The notes below the pieces were generated by a model. It was not told where the DNA came from. It was given only the letters and a program-made list of their open reading frames with translations, and ran no database searches. Below, in pieces: positions 23,850-33,162 of a stretch of 64,000 nucleotides of DNA (its first letter is position 1; every line of letters starts with the position of its first letter). A program made the translations under genes and the position numbers. Location: positions 154,156-218,155 of the forward strand of contig NZ_VIKW01000002.1 of NCBI RefSeq assembly GCF_009711975.1, read 5' to 3'. This DNA is from Anabaena sp. UHCC 0204. GTDB lineage: Bacteria; Cyanobacteriota; Cyanobacteriia; Cyanobacteriales; Nostocaceae.

Positions 23850-24156
23850 TAAGTAGTCGGACAAAATTAAATTCACTCGTTGAGAGAGGGAACAGAAAAA
23901 TCAGTTGTGTCAGTAACTAGACCAAAATAAATCAACTTAGATTAAGTAATGTAAAAAATATTGAGATGCTTTGGTAGTAAGGGCTGAAGCCCTTAAATAA
24001 GGACTAAAGTCCTCACTACAAACCGGGAATTATTTAGTCCGTTCTACTTAATTAATTCTGTCCAATTACTTAAAAATACAGTTACAAAAAATGAAGATAC
24101 TTGTAAATCAAGTTAAATATGTTGTAATTAATAATAAGTCTTAATACTAACTGATC
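23850..24156. other. Intergenic region with a REP-like palindrome
   Basis: This 307-bp region contains the palindromes at 23979-24013 and otherwise AT-rich sequence. It includes the leader of the lipoprotein gene. No coding frame was seen. Confidence 0.5.
23979..24013. repeat. Double palindromic dispersed repeat
   Basis: AAGGGCTGAAGCCCTT (23979-23994) is followed at six bases by AGGACTAAAGTCCT (24000-24013), flanked by GTAGT and CACTAC, which also pair. This looks like a known type of cyanobacterial extragenic palindrome. Confidence 0.8.
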
Positions 24157-24987
24157 ATGAAAAAATTAATTTCCACAGTTTCTTTAATTATTACCTGTAT
24201 ATCAATAGTAAGTTGTGGTAGCGCATCAAGTGATATAGATGCGAGTAATACTGTCAAACAAAGTCAAACAGAATCTTCTCCAGCAACCGCAACTCAGGAA
24301 GAGGAAAATAATCAAGAAGATCCTCAAAAGCCTGTCCGCGAAAATCTAGCTAGTACGGTAAACAACAATAATACTACTACGAAAAATGCCGATAAACAAC
24401 CAAAAGTAGGGATAGTTAAGGAGTTAGTGAATGGTGATTTGCTATGTTACGTTACTCTGGTAGATGAAAAAGGAATTGAACATAATGTTGGCGCGACTTT
24501 TGAAATTTGTGAGGAGGAAAAAAAATTCCTCAATAAAAAAATACGTGCTGTTTATGAAATAGAATCAGTTAGTGATTGTGAAAGTATAGAACCTTGTGGT
24601 AAAACTCGCCAAGAATCCATTATTACTAAAATGGAAGTTGTCAATGAAGATTCCCGCAAACAATCTGAAAGTAGTAATTCACAAACTTTAAGTAATGGGG
24701 AATGGACGATTACACTCGGTAATACAGATTCTTGGAATGGGGTTAATGGTACAGGAAATGTGAGTTATCAAGGATGTGATGCTAATGGTAAATGTCTCAA
24801 ATTGACAGGTGGTAAAATTTCCTGTCGAGATGGTAAATGTGTTACAGGTTGGGTAAATGGAGATTATGTTTACATTTTAGAACAACCGATTACTGAAGAA
24901 GGAAATGCTTCTCCAACTTTGAGAGTCAGAAAAGATGATAACGAGATTTTGAAAGCTACGGGATTTAAAGTTGTATCTGGTAATTAA
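24157..24987 (+). CDS. Putative lipoprotein of unknown function
   Basis: A 276-residue protein with a type II signal (lipobox IVSC, Cys20). A low-complexity Ser/Thr/Asn/Gln linker spans about residues 22-85. A domain with four cysteines (LLCYVTL, FEICEEE, SDCESIEPCGK) follows. A second Cys-containing beta-rich domain (about 185-276) includes NVSYQGCDANGKCLKL and KISCRDGKCVTGW. Paired cysteines suggest disulfides outside the cytoplasm. The family is not recognised. It converges with the ABC ATPase gene and overlaps it by four bases. Confidence 0.68.
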   Translation: MKKLISTVSLIITCISIVSCGSASSDIDASNTVKQSQTESSPATATQEEENNQEDPQKPVRENLASTVNNNNTTTKNADKQPKVGIVKELVNGDLLCYVTLVDEKGIEHNVGATFEICEEEKKFLNKKIRAVYEIESVSDCESIEPCGKTRQESIITKMEVVNEDSRKQSESSNSQTLSNGEWTITLGNTDSWNGVNGTGNVSYQGCDANGKCLKLTGGKISCRDGKCVTGWVNGDYVYILEQPITEEGNASPTLRVRKDDNEILKATGFKVVSGN

Positions 24988-26081
24988 GCTGGAAAAATTC
25001 TTGCACCAGTTTGACAGTTAAATACAAATAACTGATTTAGGTCTAATTGTAAGTTCAATTTTTCTCCAGGATGCAAACGGATATTGCCACCAATCTGCAC
25101 ATTCAAAAACCAGGAACAACCAGGTAAACTGGCACGAATTAAAGTTTCTCTTCCTAATGGTTCAACCACTTTCACATCTGCAAATAATCCTTCTGAATTT
25201 TCCTCTTTTTGCTCTTGATTAAGATGAAAGTGTTCAGGACGAATACCTAAATTATAACTTTCGCCTGAGTTTAAATGCAATTTTTCTTGTAAATCGGGAG
25301 GAATTGCTAATATCTGCCCACTAATATTAAAATTATCACCATGATAGATAGCGGGAAGAATATTCATTGGTGGATTACCTAAAAAACTGGCTACCATTTC
25401 ATTAGCAGGTAAAGCATAAATACTTTGAGGATCACCAATTTGTTGAATTCTCCCTTGATTAAGGACGACAATTTTATCAGCTAAAGTCATGGCTTCAACT
25501 TGATCATGGGTGACGTAAATTGTCGTAATTCCTAGTTGTTGATGTAGCTGTTTTAATTCGGCTCTGGTATCATCTCGTAATTGGGCATCTAAATTAGATA
25601 AAGGTTCATCAAGTAAAAATAATTGAGCTTGACGAGCGATCGCTCTTCCTAATGCTACTCGTTGTTGTTGTCCTCCTGAAAGCTGTTTGGGTTTTCTGTC
25701 TAAAAGATGTTCTAGAGAAAGCGATCGCGCTACCGTTAATACTCGTTCTTTAATAGTTTTCGGAGCAACCTGACGCATTTGTAACCCAAAAGCGATATTC
25801 TCGGCTACCGTCATGTGTGGATATAGGGCATAGTTTTGAAATACCATGGCTATATCGCGTTGTCGTGCAGGAACATCATTAACCAGGCGATCGCCTATAT
25901 ACAAATTACCAGATGTCGCAGTTTCTAAACCAGCTATAGTTCGCAAAATCGTTGATTTACCGCAACCAGACGGACCAACTAAAACCCAAAACTCACCATC
26001 GGGAATTTCCAAGCTAATATCTTCAATAGCGGTGACGTTGTTGAATTTACGCTTGATATTTTCGAGTAGAACTTTTGCCAT
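24984..26081 (-). CDS. ABC transporter ATPase, MalK/UgpC type
   Basis: A 365-residue ATPase of the carbohydrate-uptake family. Walker A is GPSGCGKST (36-44), the Q-loop MVFQNYALYPHM, the signature LSGGQQQR (134-141), Walker B LFLLDEP and the H-switch VTHDQ. A C-terminal TOBE/OB domain (about 240-365) includes LGIRPEHFHL, typical of MalK/UgpC. No permease or binding protein lies beside it. This is common in cyanobacteria, where one such ATPase may serve several sugar or glycerol-phosphate importers. Its partner cannot be told here. Confidence 0.88.
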   Translation of the reverse strand: MAKVLLENIKRKFNNVTAIEDISLEIPDGEFWVLVGPSGCGKSTILRTIAGLETATSGNLYIGDRLVNDVPARQRDIAMVFQNYALYPHMTVAENIAFGLQMRQVAPKTIKERVLTVARSLSLEHLLDRKPKQLSGGQQQRVALGRAIARQAQLFLLDEPLSNLDAQLRDDTRAELKQLHQQLGITTIYVTHDQVEAMTLADKIVVLNQGRIQQIGDPQSIYALPANEMVASFLGNPPMNILPAIYHGDNFNISGQILAIPPDLQEKLHLNSGESYNLGIRPEHFHLNQEQKEENSEGLFADVKVVEPLGRETLIRASLPGCSWFLNVQIGGNIRLHPGEKLNLQLDLNQLFVFNCQTGARIFPA

Positions 26082-26152
26082 TATGAAATTGATTAGTTGT
26101 ATTTAATTTACCCAATTATAAGGGAATATTAAATCAAAAATCAATTATCAAC

Positions 26153-26179
26153 TAGAGACGTTCTGCCGGAACGTCTCTA
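26153..26179. repeat. Dispersed palindrome, copy 1 of 4
   Basis: TAGAGACGTTC...GGAACGTCTCTA, a near-perfect palindrome with a short centre. It lies between two leftward ABC genes. Further copies are at 36509-36529, 49268-49293 and 50659-50682. Confidence 0.85.
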
Positions 26180-26197
26180 CAGACTCCTGCTGTAATA

Positions 26198-27034
26198 TTA
26201 TTCATCTACTGTAAAATTTTCGTCGAGAAAATTTAGAGCCTGGTTGCGGAGTTCAAAATATTCTTTGGAATTACGCATTGCTATTCTATCTCTAGGACGC
26301 TGAAAGGGAACTTTTAAAATTTTTCCTATCTTTGCAGATGGTCCATTAGTCATCAAAACAATGCGATCGGACATATAAATTGCTTCGTCTACATCATGAG
26401 TAATCATCATTACCGCTTGACGATGATTTTCCCAAATATCTAATACTTGACGTTGCAATTTACCGCGAGTCAAGGCATCCAAAGCCCCAAAAGGTTCATC
26501 CATTAATAACATTTTCGGACGAATTGCTAAAGCTCTAGCAATACCAACTCTTTGTTTCATTCCTCCAGAAATTTCATCAGGATATTTATCTGCTGCTGCT
26601 ATTAAATTTACCATTGCTAAGTGTTCATTGACAATGCTAATTCTTTCGGCACGATTAGCTTTTTTTAACACTTCATCTACAGCTAACCGAATATTTTCGC
26701 GCACAGTTAACCAAGGTAAGAGAGAATAATTTTGAAATACCATCATCCTATCTGCACCTGGTTTACGGATCTCTATGCCATCTAAACGAACTGATCCAGA
26801 TGTGGCTGTTTGAAACCCACCGATAATCTTCAGTAATGTTGATTTACCACAACCAGAATGACCTATTACAGAAATATATTCATCTTCACCAATTGTTAGA
26901 TTAACACCATCTAAAGCAACATACTCACCTTTGTCTGGTGTGGGATAAGACTTGACCAAATTTTCTATTTCCAAAAATCCATGACGGGGCATAGTTTCTG
27001 TATAATTGCGGTATGGTGAAACTGTATATTTCAT
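26198..27034 (-). CDS. ABC transporter ATPase, nitrate/bicarbonate/taurine type (NrtD-like)
   Basis: A 278-residue ATPase from the ATG at 27034, which has an AGGAG eight bases upstream; an ATG at 27040 is too close to it. Walker A is GHSGCGKST, the Q-loop MVFQNYSLLPWLTVREN, the signature ISGGMKQR, Walker B MLLMDEPFGALD and the H-switch ITHDVDEA. These match NrtD/CmpD/SsuB/TauB ATPases. It is the third gene of a leftward permease / binding-protein / ATPase operon. No NrtC-type fused ATPase is present. Confidence 0.9.
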   Translation of the reverse strand: MKYTVSPYRNYTETMPRHGFLEIENLVKSYPTPDKGEYVALDGVNLTIGEDEYISVIGHSGCGKSTLLKIIGGFQTATSGSVRLDGIEIRKPGADRMMVFQNYSLLPWLTVRENIRLAVDEVLKKANRAERISIVNEHLAMVNLIAAADKYPDEISGGMKQRVGIARALAIRPKMLLMDEPFGALDALTRGKLQRQVLDIWENHRQAVMMITHDVDEAIYMSDRIVLMTNGPSAKIGKILKVPFQRPRDRIAMRNSKEYFELRNQALNFLDENFTVDE

Positions 27035-27077
27035 GATCATTTCTCCTGGATATTGTTAACTATTTGCTTGGATTTAT

Positions 27078-28520
27078 TTAAGACATAAAGAAGCGACTAG
27101 GAGCATTAGCTCGGATGGCAAAACTATTAAGATATCCTACGGGATCACTAGGATCAAATCCTTTTTTATCTATAAACACTTCTGGAGGTTCAACTTTATA
27201 ATCTTCCTGGGGACATTGAATACCCATTTCTGCGGCTATCTCTCGATATAAATCTGTTCTCCAACCTTTTGCCGCTATTTGGTCTGCATTTTTAGGCATT
27301 TCCTTGATTTGTCCCCAACGGACAGCTTGAGTCATTAACCAAATGCTTTGAGAACGCCATAAAAATGTAGAATCTTCTGCTTTTTCATGAGGAACATTAT
27401 TAGGAATTTCCGAGAAAATTGTCGTGTCTTCAGCTTTGATAGTCCTGTTTTTACCATCAAAACCACCATAGTTATAATTGCCAATAATTCCCGGTCCAGT
27501 AAACTTAGTCATAGGAACACCTGAATTTTTGGGTTTTGCCCCAGTAAATGAGCGTTCTGTGAGTAATTCGGCTACTTCTTGATGATTTTCTGGTTTGCCA
27601 CAATATTGACAAGCTTCTATCATTGCTTTCACCAAAGAACGGTAAGTTTTGGGATAATTGACGATAAAAGATTCCATTACTCCTAGTAGTCTGTCTGGGT
27701 GTCCTTGCCAAATTTCCTTACCTTGGGCGAAGGTAAAACCGATACCTTCATTACCTGTAATTGCTCTGGTGTTCCATGGTTCGGCAACCATGTAAGCTTG
27801 CATTGCGCCAATTCTCATGTTTGTCACCATTTGCGGTGGAGAAACAATAATCACCCGAAATTCCTTCAGAGGATCTATTCCCGCCGCAGCAGATATATAG
27901 CGAACAAAGTATTCATAAATAGCGGAACTGAGGACGACAGCCCAAACTTTCTTGTCTGGGGATTGTGTATCAAAATAGCCCCGAAAGTCCTTTCCAAAGG
28001 CTGCTAAAGCCCCATCACCGTATTTTTGCTGGTATTCAAACCAAGGACGTATTCCAAAGTCCCACATTTCTTTGTTCATGGTCATGGCGTTACCATGACG
28101 GTGTAAGGTCATCGCTGCACATAAGGGGGCATGACGCGCCCCTTCTGCGCCAATTCTGGCGTTGGTGACAGCACCAGAAACGACGGGTGCAGCATCAAGA
28201 CGACCGAAAATTAAACCGTCGCGGGAGTTTCCCCAACTAGCTTCACGGCTGAGTTTGACATTTAAGCCATATTTGCGGAAGAATCCTTTTTTCCAAGCGA
28301 TCGCAAATGGCGCACAATCATTTACAGGTACATAACCAACGGTAATATTGGGTTTTTCTAAGTCTTGAGGTTTAACTAAGGGTTCTACAGCTAATGCTGC
28401 TTCTGTCAATCCTGTAGCCGATTTATCTTTTGATATTCCACAGGATGATAAAGCTAAACCCGCAGTCATTAAACCGATTCCCTGAATAAAGTCTCTGCGT
28501 TTCCAATGATTTTCACTCAT
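27078..28520 (-). CDS. ABC transporter substrate-binding protein, NrtA/CmpA family, Tat lipoprotein
   Basis: A 480-residue binding protein. The N-terminus has a twin-arginine motif (KRRDFIQGIG) and a lipobox (LSSC, Cys27), so it is probably exported folded and lipid-anchored. The body resembles NrtA/CmpA (ITVGYVPVNDCAPFAIAWKKGFF, LDAAPVVSGAVTNARIG, MTLHRHGNAMTMNKEMW, MVAEPWNTRAI). Family substrates include nitrate, nitrite, bicarbonate, cyanate and sulfonates. Which one applies is unknown, and neither nir nor cynS genes are nearby. It lies between its permease and ATPase genes. Confidence 0.87.
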   Translation of the reverse strand: MSENHWKRRDFIQGIGLMTAGLALSSCGISKDKSATGLTEAALAVEPLVKPQDLEKPNITVGYVPVNDCAPFAIAWKKGFFRKYGLNVKLSREASWGNSRDGLIFGRLDAAPVVSGAVTNARIGAEGARHAPLCAAMTLHRHGNAMTMNKEMWDFGIRPWFEYQQKYGDGALAAFGKDFRGYFDTQSPDKKVWAVVLSSAIYEYFVRYISAAAGIDPLKEFRVIIVSPPQMVTNMRIGAMQAYMVAEPWNTRAITGNEGIGFTFAQGKEIWQGHPDRLLGVMESFIVNYPKTYRSLVKAMIEACQYCGKPENHQEVAELLTERSFTGAKPKNSGVPMTKFTGPGIIGNYNYGGFDGKNRTIKAEDTTIFSEIPNNVPHEKAEDSTFLWRSQSIWLMTQAVRWGQIKEMPKNADQIAAKGWRTDLYREIAAEMGIQCPQEDYKVEPPEVFIDKKGFDPSDPVGYLNSFAIRANAPSRFFMS

Positions 28521-28635
28521 GGTTGTATACCATTATTGGATTGTACAAAAATTGCTGGATTAGCTGTGCAGCTTTCCATCTATCGCCATCATTTTTCAAA
28601 TTGGTATCAATGATTCATTAATTCAGATCAGACTC

Positions 28636-28671
28636 AGACGCAAACTCGAATTGCGTCTTGCAGTTTTTTTT
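28636..28671. promoter_or_regulatory. Intercistronic hairpin between permease and binding-protein genes
   Basis: AGACGCAA (28636-28643) pairs with TTGCGTCT (28651-28658). The T-run follows on the plus strand, not on the coding strand, so it is not a normal terminator of the leftward operon. It could stabilise the downstream binding-protein mRNA, which usually needs higher expression, or end an antisense transcript. Confidence 0.5.
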
Positions 28672-28683
28672 CAACAAATTGTA

Positions 28684-29535
28684 TTACTTCAAACTTCCTG
28701 GACGGTGGGTAACTAATTCTTGAATTTTGCCCAAACCATAATCTAAAACTAAGCCAGTTAAACCAATGACAATTACAGCCAAAAATACAGAACTGAGATT
28801 TAAACGACTCCATTCATCCCAGACAAAAAAGCCGATTCCTACACCACCTGTGAGCATTTCTACAGCCACAATTACTAACCAAGCAATTCCTAAACTAATT
28901 CGCAATCCTGTAAAAATATAGGGCAAACTGGCAGGCCAAATAATTTTGGTAATTTGTCGCCATCTTGGCATTTCCAAGACTTGCGCTACATCTAAATAAT
29001 CTTTTGGTACACTAGAAACTCCCAATGCCGTATTAATAATAGTTGGCCACAGAGAGGTAATGAAAATTACAAAAATAGCAGAAGGATCTGCCAAATTGAA
29101 CAGAGATAAAGAAATCGGCAACCAAGCTAAGGGTGATACTGGTTTCAAAATCTGAATAATGGGATTGAAAGCCAGCATTGCCGGTCTAGATGTTCCTATC
29201 CAAAACCCCAAGGGAACTGCTACTAATACACCTAAACCAAATCCTAAAATTACCCTGTACAAACTTGCTAATAATAACCAGCCAATTCCTAAGTCACCTG
29301 GACCTCTTTGATAAAATGGATGTAAGATATACTCCCAATTAGCAATTAAAGCTTCTAATGGTGTGGGCATTAATTCATGATTAGCAAGTGCTACCACCCA
29401 CCACAATAAAATAATTCCTAAAAAGCCCAATGCTGGGTATAGGAAAGTATCCTGAAAAATTACAGGTTTGGTTTTTTTCCAAACAGCTTGTCCAGCAACT
29501 GCAATGACAGCAGCTACATTTAATTGAAATATCAT
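28684..29535 (-). CDS. ABC transporter permease, NrtB/CmpB/SsuC type
   Basis: A 283-residue inner-membrane permease with about six transmembrane helices. It has the BPD_transp_1 loop for ATPase contact (DYLDVAQVLEMPRWRQITKIIWPASLPYIFTGLRISLG, near residues 180-220). It is the first gene of the operon and is preceded by a GAGGTGA ribosome site and, about 75 bases further upstream, by a ydaO-class riboswitch. The partner genes are at 27078 and 26198. Confidence 0.9.
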   Translation of the reverse strand: MIFQLNVAAVIAVAGQAVWKKTKPVIFQDTFLYPALGFLGIILLWWVVALANHELMPTPLEALIANWEYILHPFYQRGPGDLGIGWLLLASLYRVILGFGLGVLVAVPLGFWIGTSRPAMLAFNPIIQILKPVSPLAWLPISLSLFNLADPSAIFVIFITSLWPTIINTALGVSSVPKDYLDVAQVLEMPRWRQITKIIWPASLPYIFTGLRISLGIAWLVIVAVEMLTGGVGIGFFVWDEWSRLNLSSVFLAVIVIGLTGLVLDYGLGKIQELVTHRPGSLK

Positions 29536-30253
29536 CTATTTCACCTCAACAGAGTTAAGCGTGGGTACGAAAACATTAACTAGTACCAACCTTGGACACT
29601 GATGAGATCAGAATATAATCAAAATTCTGTCTCTTCAGTCTCCTCTCAGTGCCTACGAAGTTAGCTGACGGGCTAGGGTTGAGAGATCCCCTTTTTTGCT
29701 CAATTTTGAATTTTTTTGAGTTACAAACCTCAAATTACTAAACTAAATCAAGACAAAAATACGCCCCACAATTTGGTTCCTCCGTTCCAGTACGGCTGAT
29801 TGTGATGTACTGGACTAGGCTGACTTACTCGAAATTAATGATAGCACCTTAACATTGATGTTTCGTCATAACATCAGTATTGAGAATAAATATTTGTTAC
29901 TTAACTACTAGATTTTTTGGGTATCCTAGATTTTGAGTATTAATTCTTAAGCTATAGTTGTCATACGAGCAAATCTTTATCCATAGGCATATACTAGATA
30001 ATTAGATTTACTAAATTTAAATAACTGGATTTTAGCCAAGTATTAGCTGATAAAAGTGATAATATCATAGCTAAATGGGTGATAGCTGTTCGTTAATATA
30101 AACAGATAGAAAGTGCTGACAATCTATCTTTTAGTGCAATTAAAAATCACATTCCATATATATTTTTACCTTTGCAAATGGAAATTAAAGAAAGTTGATT
30201 TCGCTCAAAGATACAAAATATATTTTTCCAGCTTTGAGTAAAATCAACAATTA
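29536..30253. other. Long leader region containing a riboswitch
   Basis: This 718-bp gap between the leftward permease gene and rnc carries the riboswitch at 29612-29825. The remaining 430 bases up to 30253 are AT-rich and hold the promoter of the transporter operon, with no recognised coding frame or repeat. Confidence 0.6.
29612..29825 (-). ncRNA. ydaO/yuaA-class riboswitch (cyclic di-AMP)
   Basis: The minus strand shows the conserved blocks of this aptamer in order: GAACGGAGGAACC (29787-29775), GGGGCG, GGGGATCTCTCAACCC, then GCCCGTCAGCTAAC (29673-29660), TTCGTAGGC and GAGAGGAGAC (29647-29638). The helix CTCTC/GAGAG that closes the second half is intact. A variable AT-rich insertion separates the two halves (about 29700-29760). 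The class is known to bind c-di-AMP and usually turns genes off when bound. Downstream, CAGAAT/ATTCTG can form a hairpin, but no terminator T-run is obvious, so the expression platform is unclear. The first gene it precedes is the NrtB-type permease. Confidence 0.92.
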
Positions 30254-30952
30254 TCAATCTAATAAACCCTGTTTTTTCAATTTAGCTAAAGCATCTTCAG
30301 CAGCAGCTTTTTCTGCTTCTTTTTTATTGCGTCCTTTACCTGTTCCGTGCAATTCGGATATTCCATTAACTACTTCAAATACCTTAGATACAAATACTGG
30401 TGCGTGAGAGGGTCCGTCAACTTGTTCTGTAACATATTTGGGAGGAGTTGTGTTACCTTGAGCTTGTACCCATTCTTGAAAGCGATTTTTTGAATCTACA
30501 TTTGAACGAATTTCCACAATATGTTTTGAGGCAGAATCAAATAATTCTTTAACTATGGGACGCAGTGGTTCAACATTACAATTATTATCTAAATAATAAG
30601 CACCAATTACAGCTTCAAAGGTGCTACTAAGTAAATTAGGATTGTGATATCCTCCATCTAAAATTGCCCCTTGTCCTAATCGCATTCTAAAATCTAAACC
30701 TACTTCAATGGCAAATTTTGCTAGTTGTTTTTCTTCTACTAATGCGGAACGAAGACGAGTTAATTCATCTTCTCCTTTTTTCGGGTGAAGACGATAAAGG
30801 TATTCTCCACTCAAGAAGTTAAGGATAGCATCACCTAAAAATTCTAAGCGTTCGTTATGTTCCCCTTCTCCTGGGTTTTCGTTAACATAAGAACGGTGGG
30901 TTAATGCTTGACGCAGGAGTTTTTCGTTTTGGAATGTTAGAAGTTTGTGCAT
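30254..30952 (-). CDS. rnc: Ribonuclease III
   Basis: A 232-residue double-strand-specific endoribonuclease. The catalytic signature HNERLEFLGDAIL (32-44, Glu37 and Asp41 metal ligands) and the second acidic motif STFEAVIGAYYLD are intact. A C-terminal dsRNA-binding domain (about 157-230) includes GTGKGRNKKEAEKAAAEDAL. It processes rRNA precursors and structured RNAs. Filamentous cyanobacteria often carry more than one rnc paralogue, so this may not be the only one. Confidence 0.94.
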   Translation of the reverse strand: MHKLLTFQNEKLLRQALTHRSYVNENPGEGEHNERLEFLGDAILNFLSGEYLYRLHPKKGEDELTRLRSALVEEKQLAKFAIEVGLDFRMRLGQGAILDGGYHNPNLLSSTFEAVIGAYYLDNNCNVEPLRPIVKELFDSASKHIVEIRSNVDSKNRFQEWVQAQGNTTPPKYVTEQVDGPSHAPVFVSKVFEVVNGISELHGTGKGRNKKEAEKAAAEDALAKLKKQGLLD

Positions 30953-31001
30953 TTTATTTTTTAGTTTTGTTGGTAAGATGAATTTTATTTAAACATGAAA
31001 A

Positions 31002-31018
31002 AACCGCATCTTGCGGTT
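31002..31018 (-). terminator. Rho-independent terminator of the NYN gene
   Basis: AACCGCA / TGCGGTT stem with a TCT loop, followed on the minus strand by a run of six T. It lies 68 bases beyond the stop of the leftward gene at 31086. Confidence 0.85.
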
Positions 31019-31085
31019 ATCATAAACCAGTTATTTTCATAAACTGGGATTTTAAAGTTTTTACAACCAATGTCCAGAGTGGATT

Positions 31086-31832
31086 TTAGGCAGCTATTTG
31101 ATTTAATTCAATTAAAAACAACTCCTGATTTTGTTTTTTAACTTTACCTTCCTTGACAGCCATATCCACAAATTGTCCAAAGCTTTTAATTTTTTTACCA
31201 TTTGGTGTAGATATTGAAGCAACTCCTTGATATTTGGAAAATAGTTTACGCATCAATTTACCAATATGGCTATAGTCTGTAGGTTGATTTTGTCTTATTG
31301 CATTTTCAACAGTTGCAATCAAACAATCCACAGCTTCATTATAACTAATCTGACAATTTATGACTGTGGTTTGAGGTTCGGTTTTTTCTCCAACAAATTT
31401 ATGTAAGTCATCTATGAAGTAAAATTCATCCGCCACATCTTTTAGACTTTTCTTAGCATTACCTTCTCTGGCAAAGATTATCACATATTTACCTTGATCT
31501 CGTAACATTTTAACACAATTCACGAAATCTCCATCTCCTGAAACCAAGATAAATGCATCTGGTGAATTATCGCTGTAAATATCATCAAGTAAATCAGATT
31601 TGATTTGATTATCTACAGCATTTTTTAAGGGAAAAGCAACATCTACTATTTTCACAATTTGTTGAAAATCAGATGCTAAACTCCATTTAGCAAAATTTCT
31701 TCCTGATGAATTAGTGTATATCCTTTGGCTGATTACACGATCTTTTTTTAATGTAACAAATTCTATCAATTTGGTTGATAGATCAGAAGTTGCATGAACG
31801 TTCTCAGAATCCCAACAGATAGAAACTTTCAT
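31086..31832 (-). CDS. NYN-domain (LabA/DUF88) protein with C-terminal LOTUS-like domain
   Basis: A 248-residue protein. The N-terminal NYN/PIN-like nuclease fold (residues 1-150) has conserved acidic residues Asp8 (CWDSENVH), Asp80, Asp100 and Asp102 (VSGDGDFV). The C-terminal 80 residues (YNEAVDCLIATVENAI ... IGKLMRKLFSKYQG ... FGQFVDMAVKEGKV) resemble the OST-HTH/LOTUS domain often fused to NYN. A role in RNA cleavage or RNA binding is expected; LabA-type relatives affect circadian output. It is divergent from xisH, with the inverted-repeat element between them. Confidence 0.83.
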   Translation of the reverse strand: MKVSICWDSENVHATSDLSTKLIEFVTLKKDRVISQRIYTNSSGRNFAKWSLASDFQQIVKIVDVAFPLKNAVDNQIKSDLLDDIYSDNSPDAFILVSGDGDFVNCVKMLRDQGKYVIIFAREGNAKKSLKDVADEFYFIDDLHKFVGEKTEPQTTVINCQISYNEAVDCLIATVENAIRQNQPTDYSHIGKLMRKLFSKYQGVASISTPNGKKIKSFGQFVDMAVKEGKVKKQNQELFLIELNQIAA

Positions 31833-32422
31833 TTTGTTAATTCCTGAATTTGTTTAGTGGAAATTAACAGCTTTAACAAATCACACATCTATAGCAATTT
31901 AACTAGATGAAAGAAAAACTAAAAAATTAGTTTCATCTCATTTAGTTCCTCATGTTAATCAGTTTCAGTCTCAGTATTAGGATTCATTGTTGATAAATCC
32001 CGGTTGGTGAGTACGATGAACACTTACCAAAGTTCATACACCTTATTTTTAGCATTACATCAATTGTTTAACAAATTGGACACTATATTTGTGGCAGGTT
32101 TGATTACAATTGGGTGTAACGGACTAAATAATGGTGCAATAAAACATTAAAGCAAGTGTTTATCGTACCCAACAACCGGGACTTGTCAACAATGAATCCT
32201 ACCGCTGAGACAACTACCGACACTTAGGGGTTAGAGTCTCACTTAAGATTGCAGTTGTTTAACTGTCTTGTTTATACACTGACATAGTGAATCTGGAATG
32301 TCAATACTGAATTTCAATTTAAAAATAAGCAGCTTTTTATACTATCGAGTAGTCTGATTTATTTCTGTAAGGTGAGATAAAATTTATTATAATAATAAAT
32401 AAAAATACTAAATTTAAAACGA
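31833..32422. other. Intergenic region containing a 244-bp inverted-repeat element
   Basis: This 590-bp gap between the divergent NYN and xisH genes is dominated by the element at 31968-32211. The last 200 bases are AT-rich and carry the xisH leader. No small gene was seen. Confidence 0.6.
31968..32211. repeat. 244-bp element with 58-bp gapless inverted ends
   Basis: The left arm 31968-32025 and right arm 32154-32211 are complementary over 58 positions without gaps, with 8 mismatches. Shared blocks include TAGGATTCATTGTTGA, TCCCGGTTG and GTACGAT.AACACTT. The 128-bp centre has no open frame. It could be a non-autonomous transposable element (MITE) or encode a long-hairpin RNA. Confidence 0.85.
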
Positions 32423-32839
32423 ATGCCAGCTAAAGATATTTTTCATGATGCTGTTAGAAAAGGATTAGAAAAAGAGGGTTGGGTAATCACAGATGATCCT
32501 TTGAGGATTGAAATTGGTGATGTAGAAATGTATATTGATCTTGGGGCTGAGGAAATTCTAGCTGCTGAAAGAACTGGAGAAAAAATAGCAGTTGAAATTA
32601 AGAGTTTTACTGGTACATCGAATATTTCTCAATTTCATACAGCCGTTGGACAGTTTTTTAATTATCGTTTCGCATTAGAAAATAAAGCACCAGAAAGAGT
32701 TTTATATTTGGCTGTCCCTTTAGGAGTTTATCACGCTTTCTTTCAATTGCAATTTATCAAAACAGTTATCGAGCATTATCAACTTAAAATCATTGTTTAT
32801 GATCCGATTGAGGAGGCAATTGTAGAATGGAAAAACTAA
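32423..32839 (+). CDS. xisH: XisH-family protein (PD-(D/E)XK-like nuclease fold)
   Basis: A 138-residue protein of the XisH family, first named as a control factor for excision of the fdxN element in Anabaena. Conserved features are LEKEGWVITDDPL, DLGAEEI (Asp39) and KIAVEIKSF (Glu58-x-Lys60), which together form a PD-(D/E)XK-like active-site pattern. Many copies exist in genomes that lack the fdxN element, so another role is likely. The stop overlaps the xisI start by 13 bases. Confidence 0.92.
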   Translation: MPAKDIFHDAVRKGLEKEGWVITDDPLRIEIGDVEMYIDLGAEEILAAERTGEKIAVEIKSFTGTSNISQFHTAVGQFFNYRFALENKAPERVLYLAVPLGVYHAFFQLQFIKTVIEHYQLKIIVYDPIEEAIVEWKN

Positions 32840-33162
32840 AGCAATATCAAAATTATGTTCAACAAGTTATTAGAGAGTATGCTCAAATAGGTTCAACTAA
32901 GGACGAGATTGAACAACAACTGATTTTTGATCCTGTTGGTAATCATTATCAGTTAATGTATGTTGGTTGGAAAAACAGACGCAGACAGCATGGTTGTCTT
33001 TTGCATCTTGATATTAAAAACGACAAGATTTGGATACAACATGATGGAACTGAAATTGGGATTGCAGATGAATTAGTTAAATTGGGAGTACCAAAAGAGG
33101 ATATTGTTTTGGCTTTTCATGAGCCTTTAATGAGACAATATACAGGTTTTGCAGTTGGTTAA
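32827..33162 (+). CDS. xisI: XisI-family protein
   Basis: A 111-residue protein of the XisI family: KLKQYQNYVQQVIREYAQIG near the start, DPVGNHYQLMYVGWKNRRRQHGCLLHLDIK in the middle, GIADELVKLGVPKEDIVLAFHEP at the end. It always accompanies XisH and probably forms a complex with it. Translation is coupled through a 13-base overlap. It is followed by a palindromic repeat and the convergent gun4 gene. Confidence 0.92.
   Translation: MEKLKQYQNYVQQVIREYAQIGSTKDEIEQQLIFDPVGNHYQLMYVGWKNRRRQHGCLLHLDIKNDKIWIQHDGTEIGIADELVKLGVPKEDIVLAFHEPLMRQYTGFAVG

Follow-up and report, generated by a model that had tools for sequence, protein, structure and literature searches.

A c-di-AMP riboswitch aptamer in front of an Nrt/Cmp-class ABC importer operon recurs across cyanobacteria

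The region analysed here, a stretch of 64,000 nt from the genome of Anabaena sp. UHCC 0204 (the window), raises the question whether a c-di-AMP riboswitch controls an importer related to the nitrate and bicarbonate pumps and, if so, which process such a switch would serve. In cyanobacteria, c-di-AMP has been tied to night survival and salt acclimation, with few direct gene targets named (PMC10117731; here and below, sources are cited from the passages available of each). The ydaO-yuaA riboswitch is described as regulating varied transporters, possibly acting in osmoregulation (PMC3766115), and the targets named for the class include potassium importers, cell-wall genes, osmolyte genes and slr0753 (PMC10117731, PMC3766115, PMC5575661). 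The last of these, coding for a putative chloride efflux transporter, is regulated by a c-di-AMP riboswitch in Synechocystis (PMC10117731), and Nelson 2013 is cited for genes of osmoprotectant synthesis and transport in cyanobacteria (PMC5986932, PMC4284465). In the literature searched, as far as its available passages go, there is no mention of the importer as a riboswitch target, the gene tables of Nelson 2013 and Block 2010 being the most likely places to list it. The riboswitch class itself is known, and the importer may already figure among its targets in published gene lists (Nelson 2013, Mantovani 2022, Haffner 2025, Block 2010, Jones 2014).

The first-pass annotation of the window had recognised four sequence blocks of the ydaO aptamer on the minus strand and had proposed a covariance search as a check. 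This search (cmscan, Rfam) returned the c-di-AMP riboswitch model RF00379 at 29831-29635 on the minus strand with 65.9 bits against a gathering threshold of 38 (E-value 4.6e-13). The match spans the complete model (positions 1-134) and includes a long peripheral stem, with 55 positions hidden in the alignment. It is the sole match above gathering in the 64-kb window and the sole RF00379 match in the 5.74-Mb genome. All four blocks were located in the order given, namely GAACGGAGGAACC (29787-29775), GGGGCG (29767-29762), GCCCGTCAGCTAAC (29673-29660) and GAGAGGAGAC (29647-29638), and, both strands considered, each of the two longest is found a single time in the window. The span originally assigned to the aptamer, 29612-29825, does cover it for the most part but misses 6 nt on the 5' side and overruns the 3' end of the model by 23 nt, which fall in a hairpin 3' of the aptamer. 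The permease start codon (ATG, 29535) lies on the same strand, 99 nt past the Rfam end of the aptamer and, as the annotation had it, 77 nt from the end of the original span. The c-di-AMP-type aptamer in front of the importer operon is thus genuine, and ligand binding by this RNA as well as the direction of switching would be expected to follow the riboswitch class. On the side of ligand supply, a single diadenylate cyclase gene (PF02457, 129.7 bits) was found in the genome, together with one for a 7TM-HD protein (PF07698, 92.6 bits), the type of phosphodiesterase named for cyanobacteria (PMC5986932).

Downstream of the aptamer, the minus strand carries three genes. They code, in this order, for an NrtB-like permease of 283 aa (28684..29535; TIGR01183 ntrB, 225.5 bits, cut-off 209; PF00528), a substrate-binding protein of the NrtA/CmpA superfamily of 480 aa (27078..28520; PF13379 (NMT1_2), 216.1 bits, gathering 24.7) and an NrtD-like ATPase of 280 aa (26198..27040; TIGR01184 ntrCD, 361.7 bits, cut-off 291.8). 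These family matches agree with the earlier assignment to an operon of the nitrate-bicarbonate class and, together with the RF00379 match, support the claim of a c-di-AMP-type riboswitch in front of an ABC importer of the NrtA/CmpA class. The binding protein stays below all NCBIfam cut-offs; its N-terminus, judged by eye, carries a twin arginine and a lipobox-like LSSC, and its PDB matches are regulatory domains of CmpC and NrtC, NrtA and CmpA, the best being CmpC-type regulatory domains. The ATPase matches PF00005 alone and is devoid of the regulatory domain of NrtC and CmpC, which is acted on by PII and, by model, by SbtB (PMC8786288, PMC13249358). As the domain is absent, we speculate that riboswitch control may take the place of protein control.

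A UgpC/MalK-type ATPase gene (24984-26081, minus) lies directly 3' of the importer; we rejected it as an operon member, as 2 of 48 importer loci have it in this position, namely the window and one locus of the same genus, several loci ending too early to judge. Likewise, the upstream RNase III gene was rejected as the regulated gene because 422 nt separate it from the aptamer. A repeat search over 24000-31900 gave nothing of use. On the plus strand, overlapping genes for XisH and XisI, factors in the excision of a heterocyst DNA element, are found at 32423-33162 (PF08814, PF08869).

In order to place the pair of riboswitch and importer in a wider context, 388 cyanobacterial genomes were compared. 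RF00379 scored above cut-off in 195 of them, in a search whose filters lose some weak matches. A close ortholog of the binding protein was found in 119, counted as one place per genome with at least 62% identity (62-100%, partial copies included); below this range there is a gap, followed by ten places at 42-44% and others at 39% or less. Further pieces in G309, G304 and G076 are left out of this set, the one in G076 lying behind its riboswitch. At 103 of the 119 ortholog loci, an RF00379 match precedes the binding-protein gene in the same orientation at a distance of 625-3351 nt (median 1068), usually with the permease gene in between; the figure combines the riboswitch and ortholog lists with two RF00379 searches of the 76 genomes until then unaccounted for. 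Since a matched genome has one to four such riboswitches, linkage of this extent excludes chance. The riboswitch was also present at all 19 named loci tested (chosen from 80 returned), including those of Nostoc punctiforme NIES-2108, Fischerella muscicola PCC 7414, Chlorogloeopsis fritschii PCC 6912, Anabaena catenula FACHB-362 and Dolichospermum planctonicum NIES-80. As a control, only one of the ten relatives at 42-44% (G050) belongs to a genome among the riboswitch matches listed, and there the riboswitch precedes an SLC13-like gene on a different contig. The association is widespread and not confined to the genome of the window. The comparison makes a regulatory link well supported; the linkage is in all likelihood functional, and the c-di-AMP signal appears to have the importer as one of its regular targets. 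The linkage is also more general than could be seen from the window alone.

What else these riboswitches control was surveyed at 151 riboswitch loci, i.e. the best matches of the RF00379 list plus the window's own, using five queries only. The importer lies downstream on the same strand in 48 loci (within the stretch fetched), an SLC13/ArsB-like gene in 42 and a universal-stress-like (USP-like) gene without importer in 45, of which 7 also have an antiporter-like gene; other combinations of a second USP-like and an antiporter-like gene account for 3 loci, and 13 have none of the queried families. Judged by the first open frame alone, USP-like (45) and SLC13-like (40) frames form the largest clusters among 101 non-importer loci. 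Family names were checked on one representative each (Usp PF00582 with 27.7 bits, cut-off 24, for the USP-like proteins; CitMHS and ArsB for the SLC13-like ones), and 'antiporter' (cation/proton) is a reading by eye. Three main target groups emerge, namely the importer, SLC13/ArsB-like transporters and universal-stress-like proteins. Several of these genes even share a locus: a second c-di-AMP riboswitch, at about 5.3-5.7 kb, follows the importer in 12 of the 19 named loci tested, and a USP-like gene stands behind it in 66 of the 80 named loci (L188-L267), 42 of which also have an SLC13/ArsB-like gene. Ten of the 14 named loci without USP (L190, L191, L195-L202; among them Dolichospermum, Aphanizomenon, Cuspidothrix and Anabaena) are near kin of the window, and in four congeners the riboswitch-USP pair is located elsewhere. 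Searches of the window genome for relatives of USP and SLC13, run without positive control, gave no match.

A few loci of this survey deserve separate mention. At L043 (G155), the frames behind a riboswitch-SLC13 pair resemble, by eye, nitrite/sulfite reductase and uroporphyrinogen methyltransferase, which would fit a nutrient role for the SLC13-like transporter there. The first downstream frames at L113 and L164 are M23-type peptidase-like and that at L103 is glycosyltransferase-like (by eye), representing possible further targets. At L159 (G381), the riboswitch precedes a frame for an NrtD-like ATPase, and the 5 kb fetched contain neither a permease nor a binding-protein match, so that this is possibly an operon remnant; at L116 (G288) and L173 (G118) the riboswitch stands in front of a paralog of the binding protein with only 28% identity.

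With regard to the substrate, NrtA is reported to balance nitrate via Lys269 and His196, and CmpA to bind calcium via Glu271, Gln198 and Gln155 (PMC8786288, PMC13249358). In the ungapped parts of the alignment, Arg277 of the binding protein sits at the position of NrtA Lys269 and CmpA Glu271, and Tyr202 at that of NrtA His196 and CmpA Gln198; both residues are invariant in all 24 orthologs aligned out of 45 extracted proteins, CmpA Gln155 being left out because its position could not be placed. An arginine in a pocket devoid of the calcium ligands points to an anion that is bound directly, and with the equivalent of His196 lost, nitrate is not assured as the substrate. On the basis of these two positions, we regard an anionic substrate as somewhat favoured. 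The genome also has a separate nrtABCD-like operon, without riboswitch, beside a frame read by eye as nitrite reductase, and apart from the NrtA-like and NrtC-like proteins of this cluster no further relative of the binding protein was found in the genome at E-values up to 1e-5; a CmpABCD system is therefore not evident.

These data bear on the suggestion of the first-pass annotation that the switch would tie c-di-AMP to the uptake of nitrogen or carbon. An importer of such nutrients (nitrate/nitrite, cyanate or bicarbonate) would couple uptake to day-night or energy state through c-di-AMP, and it would accord with the scores of the permease and the ATPase above the NCBIfam thresholds for subunits of nitrate ABC transporters, with the lack of an evident CmpABCD and with the link of c-di-AMP to carbon metabolism and to the recovery from nitrogen starvation in Synechocystis (PMC10117731). 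The pocket, however, differs from those of both NrtA and CmpA at two positions, and the cluster beside the nitrite-reductase-like frame already resembles nrtABCD, so that a role in nitrogen or carbon uptake is unproven and the suggestion found no support; moreover, of the families queried around the riboswitches, a set without nitrogen and carbon genes, those found are USP-, SLC13- and antiporter-like. We consider the nutrient explanation unlikely. A function in ion or osmotic balance fits better because the partners of the riboswitch are SLC13/ArsB-like, USP-like and antiporter-like genes. We therefore favour a lipoprotein-fed ABC importer for a small anion, which would form a third branch beside NrtABCD and CmpABCD and would serve ion and osmotic balance together with the other riboswitch targets; for the role in ion balance taken by itself, we see an even balance of probabilities.

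The RNA extends beyond the Rfam model. The loop of the hairpin preceding the CCCGUCAGCUAAC core pairs with the tail following P1 (29686-29680 with 29648-29642), the loop strand being UCUCUCA (29680..29686, minus) and the tail strand UGAGAGG (29642..29648, minus; also seen in the leader alignment). When loops and tails were swapped among 101 distinct pairs, own partners scored 6.89 compared to 6.00 for swapped ones, with a maximum of 6.24 in 200 swaps. We assume that this pseudoknot may already be known for the c-di-AMP riboswitch class. Immediately 3' of the tail lies a conserved hairpin, H1, with the arms GGAGACUGA and UCAGUGUCC (29594..29643, minus), which has two bases in common with the tail strand. 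The 70-nt stretch of the window with H1 has a fold z of -3.02, and the mean fold z is -2.28 in 47 importer leaders and -1.62 in 97 other leaders. In an alignment of the 47 importer leaders, 97.2% of the cells of the named H1 structure are paired, its covariation score is 0.209 vs 0.142 in shuffles (reached by 0 of 500) and 7 of 17 pairs have changes on both sides, which 3 of 500 shuffles equal; further pair types, one of the five measures, showed no excess over shuffles (224 of 500). This alignment test used a structure named from the sequences and is biased towards H1, whereas a swap of the arms is independent of that alignment. Own arms gave -15.07 kcal/mol compared to -11.75 kcal/mol for swapped arms among 144 distinct leaders drawn from every target group (60 swaps, the lowest at -12.2), and -16.43 compared to -14.06 among the 47 importer leaders (lowest swap -14.98). 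L047 and L169, without a core recognisable by pattern, were excluded from the pseudoknot test, the fold z and the H1 swap. RNAalifold did not predict H1 on the leader alignment, and the pseudoknot is beyond its reach. By these sequence comparisons, pseudoknot and H1 covary across leaders, and the results of arm swap, covariation and folding make H1 look like a conserved component of the c-di-AMP switch in cyanobacteria.

How the aptamer would act on the operon was approached through the remaining leader. The permease has a Shine-Dalgarno sequence GAGGUG (29542..29547, minus), part of which is overlapped by a small hairpin CUUAA-CUCUG-UUGAG (29545..29559, minus), a candidate expression platform. 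In scans of 45 of the 48 importer loci, a Shine-Dalgarno hairpin with a score of at least 4 was found at 17 of 45 start sites of the permease, compared to 4 of 32 for the binding protein and 3 of 39 for the ATPase, with a Fisher p of 7e-4 that overstates the difference because the leaders share kinship; the hairpin is short and falls below the score threshold in 28 of the 45 leaders. No alternative pairing joining H1 to the Shine-Dalgarno sequence was established. A transcription terminator as the platform was rejected, with no terminator-like site in the window and terminator-like hairpins in only 2 of the 45 importer leaders by script. With its position over the ribosome-binding site, the small hairpin points to translational control, which we regard as rather more plausible than transcriptional control. 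On the 5' side of the aptamer, a 67-nt block (29850..29916, minus) is retained with 79% identity in two congeners without riboswitch, G136 and G178; as it is kept without the aptamer, it may mark the promoter region. A scan for sigma-70-type promoters gave no excess (3 sites, 3.6 in shuffles).

For the direction of switching, the reference is the ydaO riboswitch of B. subtilis, described as an OFF switch with two ligands bound (PMC5575661). Alternatively, c-di-AMP could switch the operon ON, or H1 could act as an antiterminator against a downstream terminator. In a few leaders, judged by eye, the 3' arm of H1 could indeed pair downstream before a U-run (with GAGGGAC or AGGAC; L092, L046, L057), and 2 of the 45 leaders have the terminator-like hairpin mentioned above; this pairing is not general, though, and both the lack of a terminator-like site in the window and the precedent of B. 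subtilis speak against such a mechanism, which appears quite improbable. An OFF switch is what we take as the probable direction. Two c-di-AMP molecules, the number described for the class, would lock the aptamer together with the loop-tail pseudoknot before H1; binding would stabilise pseudoknot and H1, and the locked aptamer would alter access to the ribosome-binding site of the permease about 100 nt downstream, so that high c-di-AMP would most likely shut off the operon. The aptamer, the operon, their conserved linkage and the covarying pseudoknot and H1 are direct results of the comparisons above. The joint reading, a c-di-AMP riboswitch, most likely OFF, on a small-anion importer for ion and osmotic balance, is in our judgement likely.

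No linked riboswitch match was found at 16 of the 119 ortholog loci, in part due to contig breaks. A contig end cuts through the aptamer in G198 (truncated match of 35.9 bits), the binding-protein gene lies at a contig end in G027, G290 and G297, and riboswitch and permease are at the end of another contig in G123, G051 and G076; in G177, only core-like motifs were seen, with no match at E 0.1. G123, G051, G027, G290 and G076 were left out when the sequences of the unlinked loci were re-examined. Eight loci from four genera (G178, G136; G151, G199, G108, G179; G275; G007) have the permease upstream and no detectable aptamer, the permease match of G179 being split over two frames and G007 lying 510 nt before a contig end. 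The importer can thus exist without the switch. In two of these, L274 (G178) and L275 (G136), the synteny of rnc and permease is kept with a 29-nt remnant of the aptamer 5'-end (86% identity), and the Shine-Dalgarno region is also retained by eye, without any riboswitch match; on sequence grounds, this is a natural loss of the switch in two congeners. That the switch, real in relatives, is decaying in the window genome as well, as its loss in G178 and G136 and the failure to find a second riboswitch and USP and SLC13 relatives there might suggest, is highly improbable given a window copy of 65.9 bits over the full model with pseudoknot and H1 retained.

The presence of the riboswitch-importer pair in 103 of the 119 genomes with the importer points to a core and testable c-di-AMP target in cyanobacteria, for which congeners with and without aptamer offer a natural comparison. 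The link also offers a starting point for finding the substrate of this importer, with its permease and ATPase scores above the thresholds of models for nitrate transporters, nitrogen or carbon uptake being the weaker reading. More broadly, and tentatively, cyanobacterial c-di-AMP could govern anion balance and not only that of potassium, through riboswitches on an ABC anion importer, an SLC13/ArsB-like anion transporter and a universal-stress-like protein that in many named loci would form one block with two riboswitches; we would call this conceivable but doubtful.

Compared to known systems, the leader is a full-length match to the RF00379 class above gathering, but its target is an Nrt/Cmp-class importer instead of the potassium, cell-wall and osmolyte genes named for the class in the passages cited above. 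The slr0753 leader of Synechocystis belongs to the same riboswitch class, and the SLC13/ArsB-like targets may be its counterpart; in contrast to slr0753, described as above, it is an ABC importer operon and not a secondary transporter that is controlled here. With NrtABCD, the operon has in common the NrtB-like permease and the NrtD-like ATPase, both above NCBIfam cut-offs, and a related binding protein, whereas it consists of three genes in the order permease, binding protein and ATPase, has no NrtC with a regulatory domain, and replaces Lys269 and His196 by Arg277 and Tyr202, the arginine keeping the positive charge. CmpABCD (BCT1) belongs to the same superfamily and supplies, with the CmpC-type regulatory domains, the best PDB matches of the binding protein, yet its calcium ligands Glu271 and Gln198 are replaced here and the operon contains no CmpC-type ATPase. 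Gene content and pocket positions rule out membership in NrtABCD or CmpABCD proper, and by its sequence the importer is a relative of, yet distinct from, the cyanobacterial nitrate and bicarbonate pumps.
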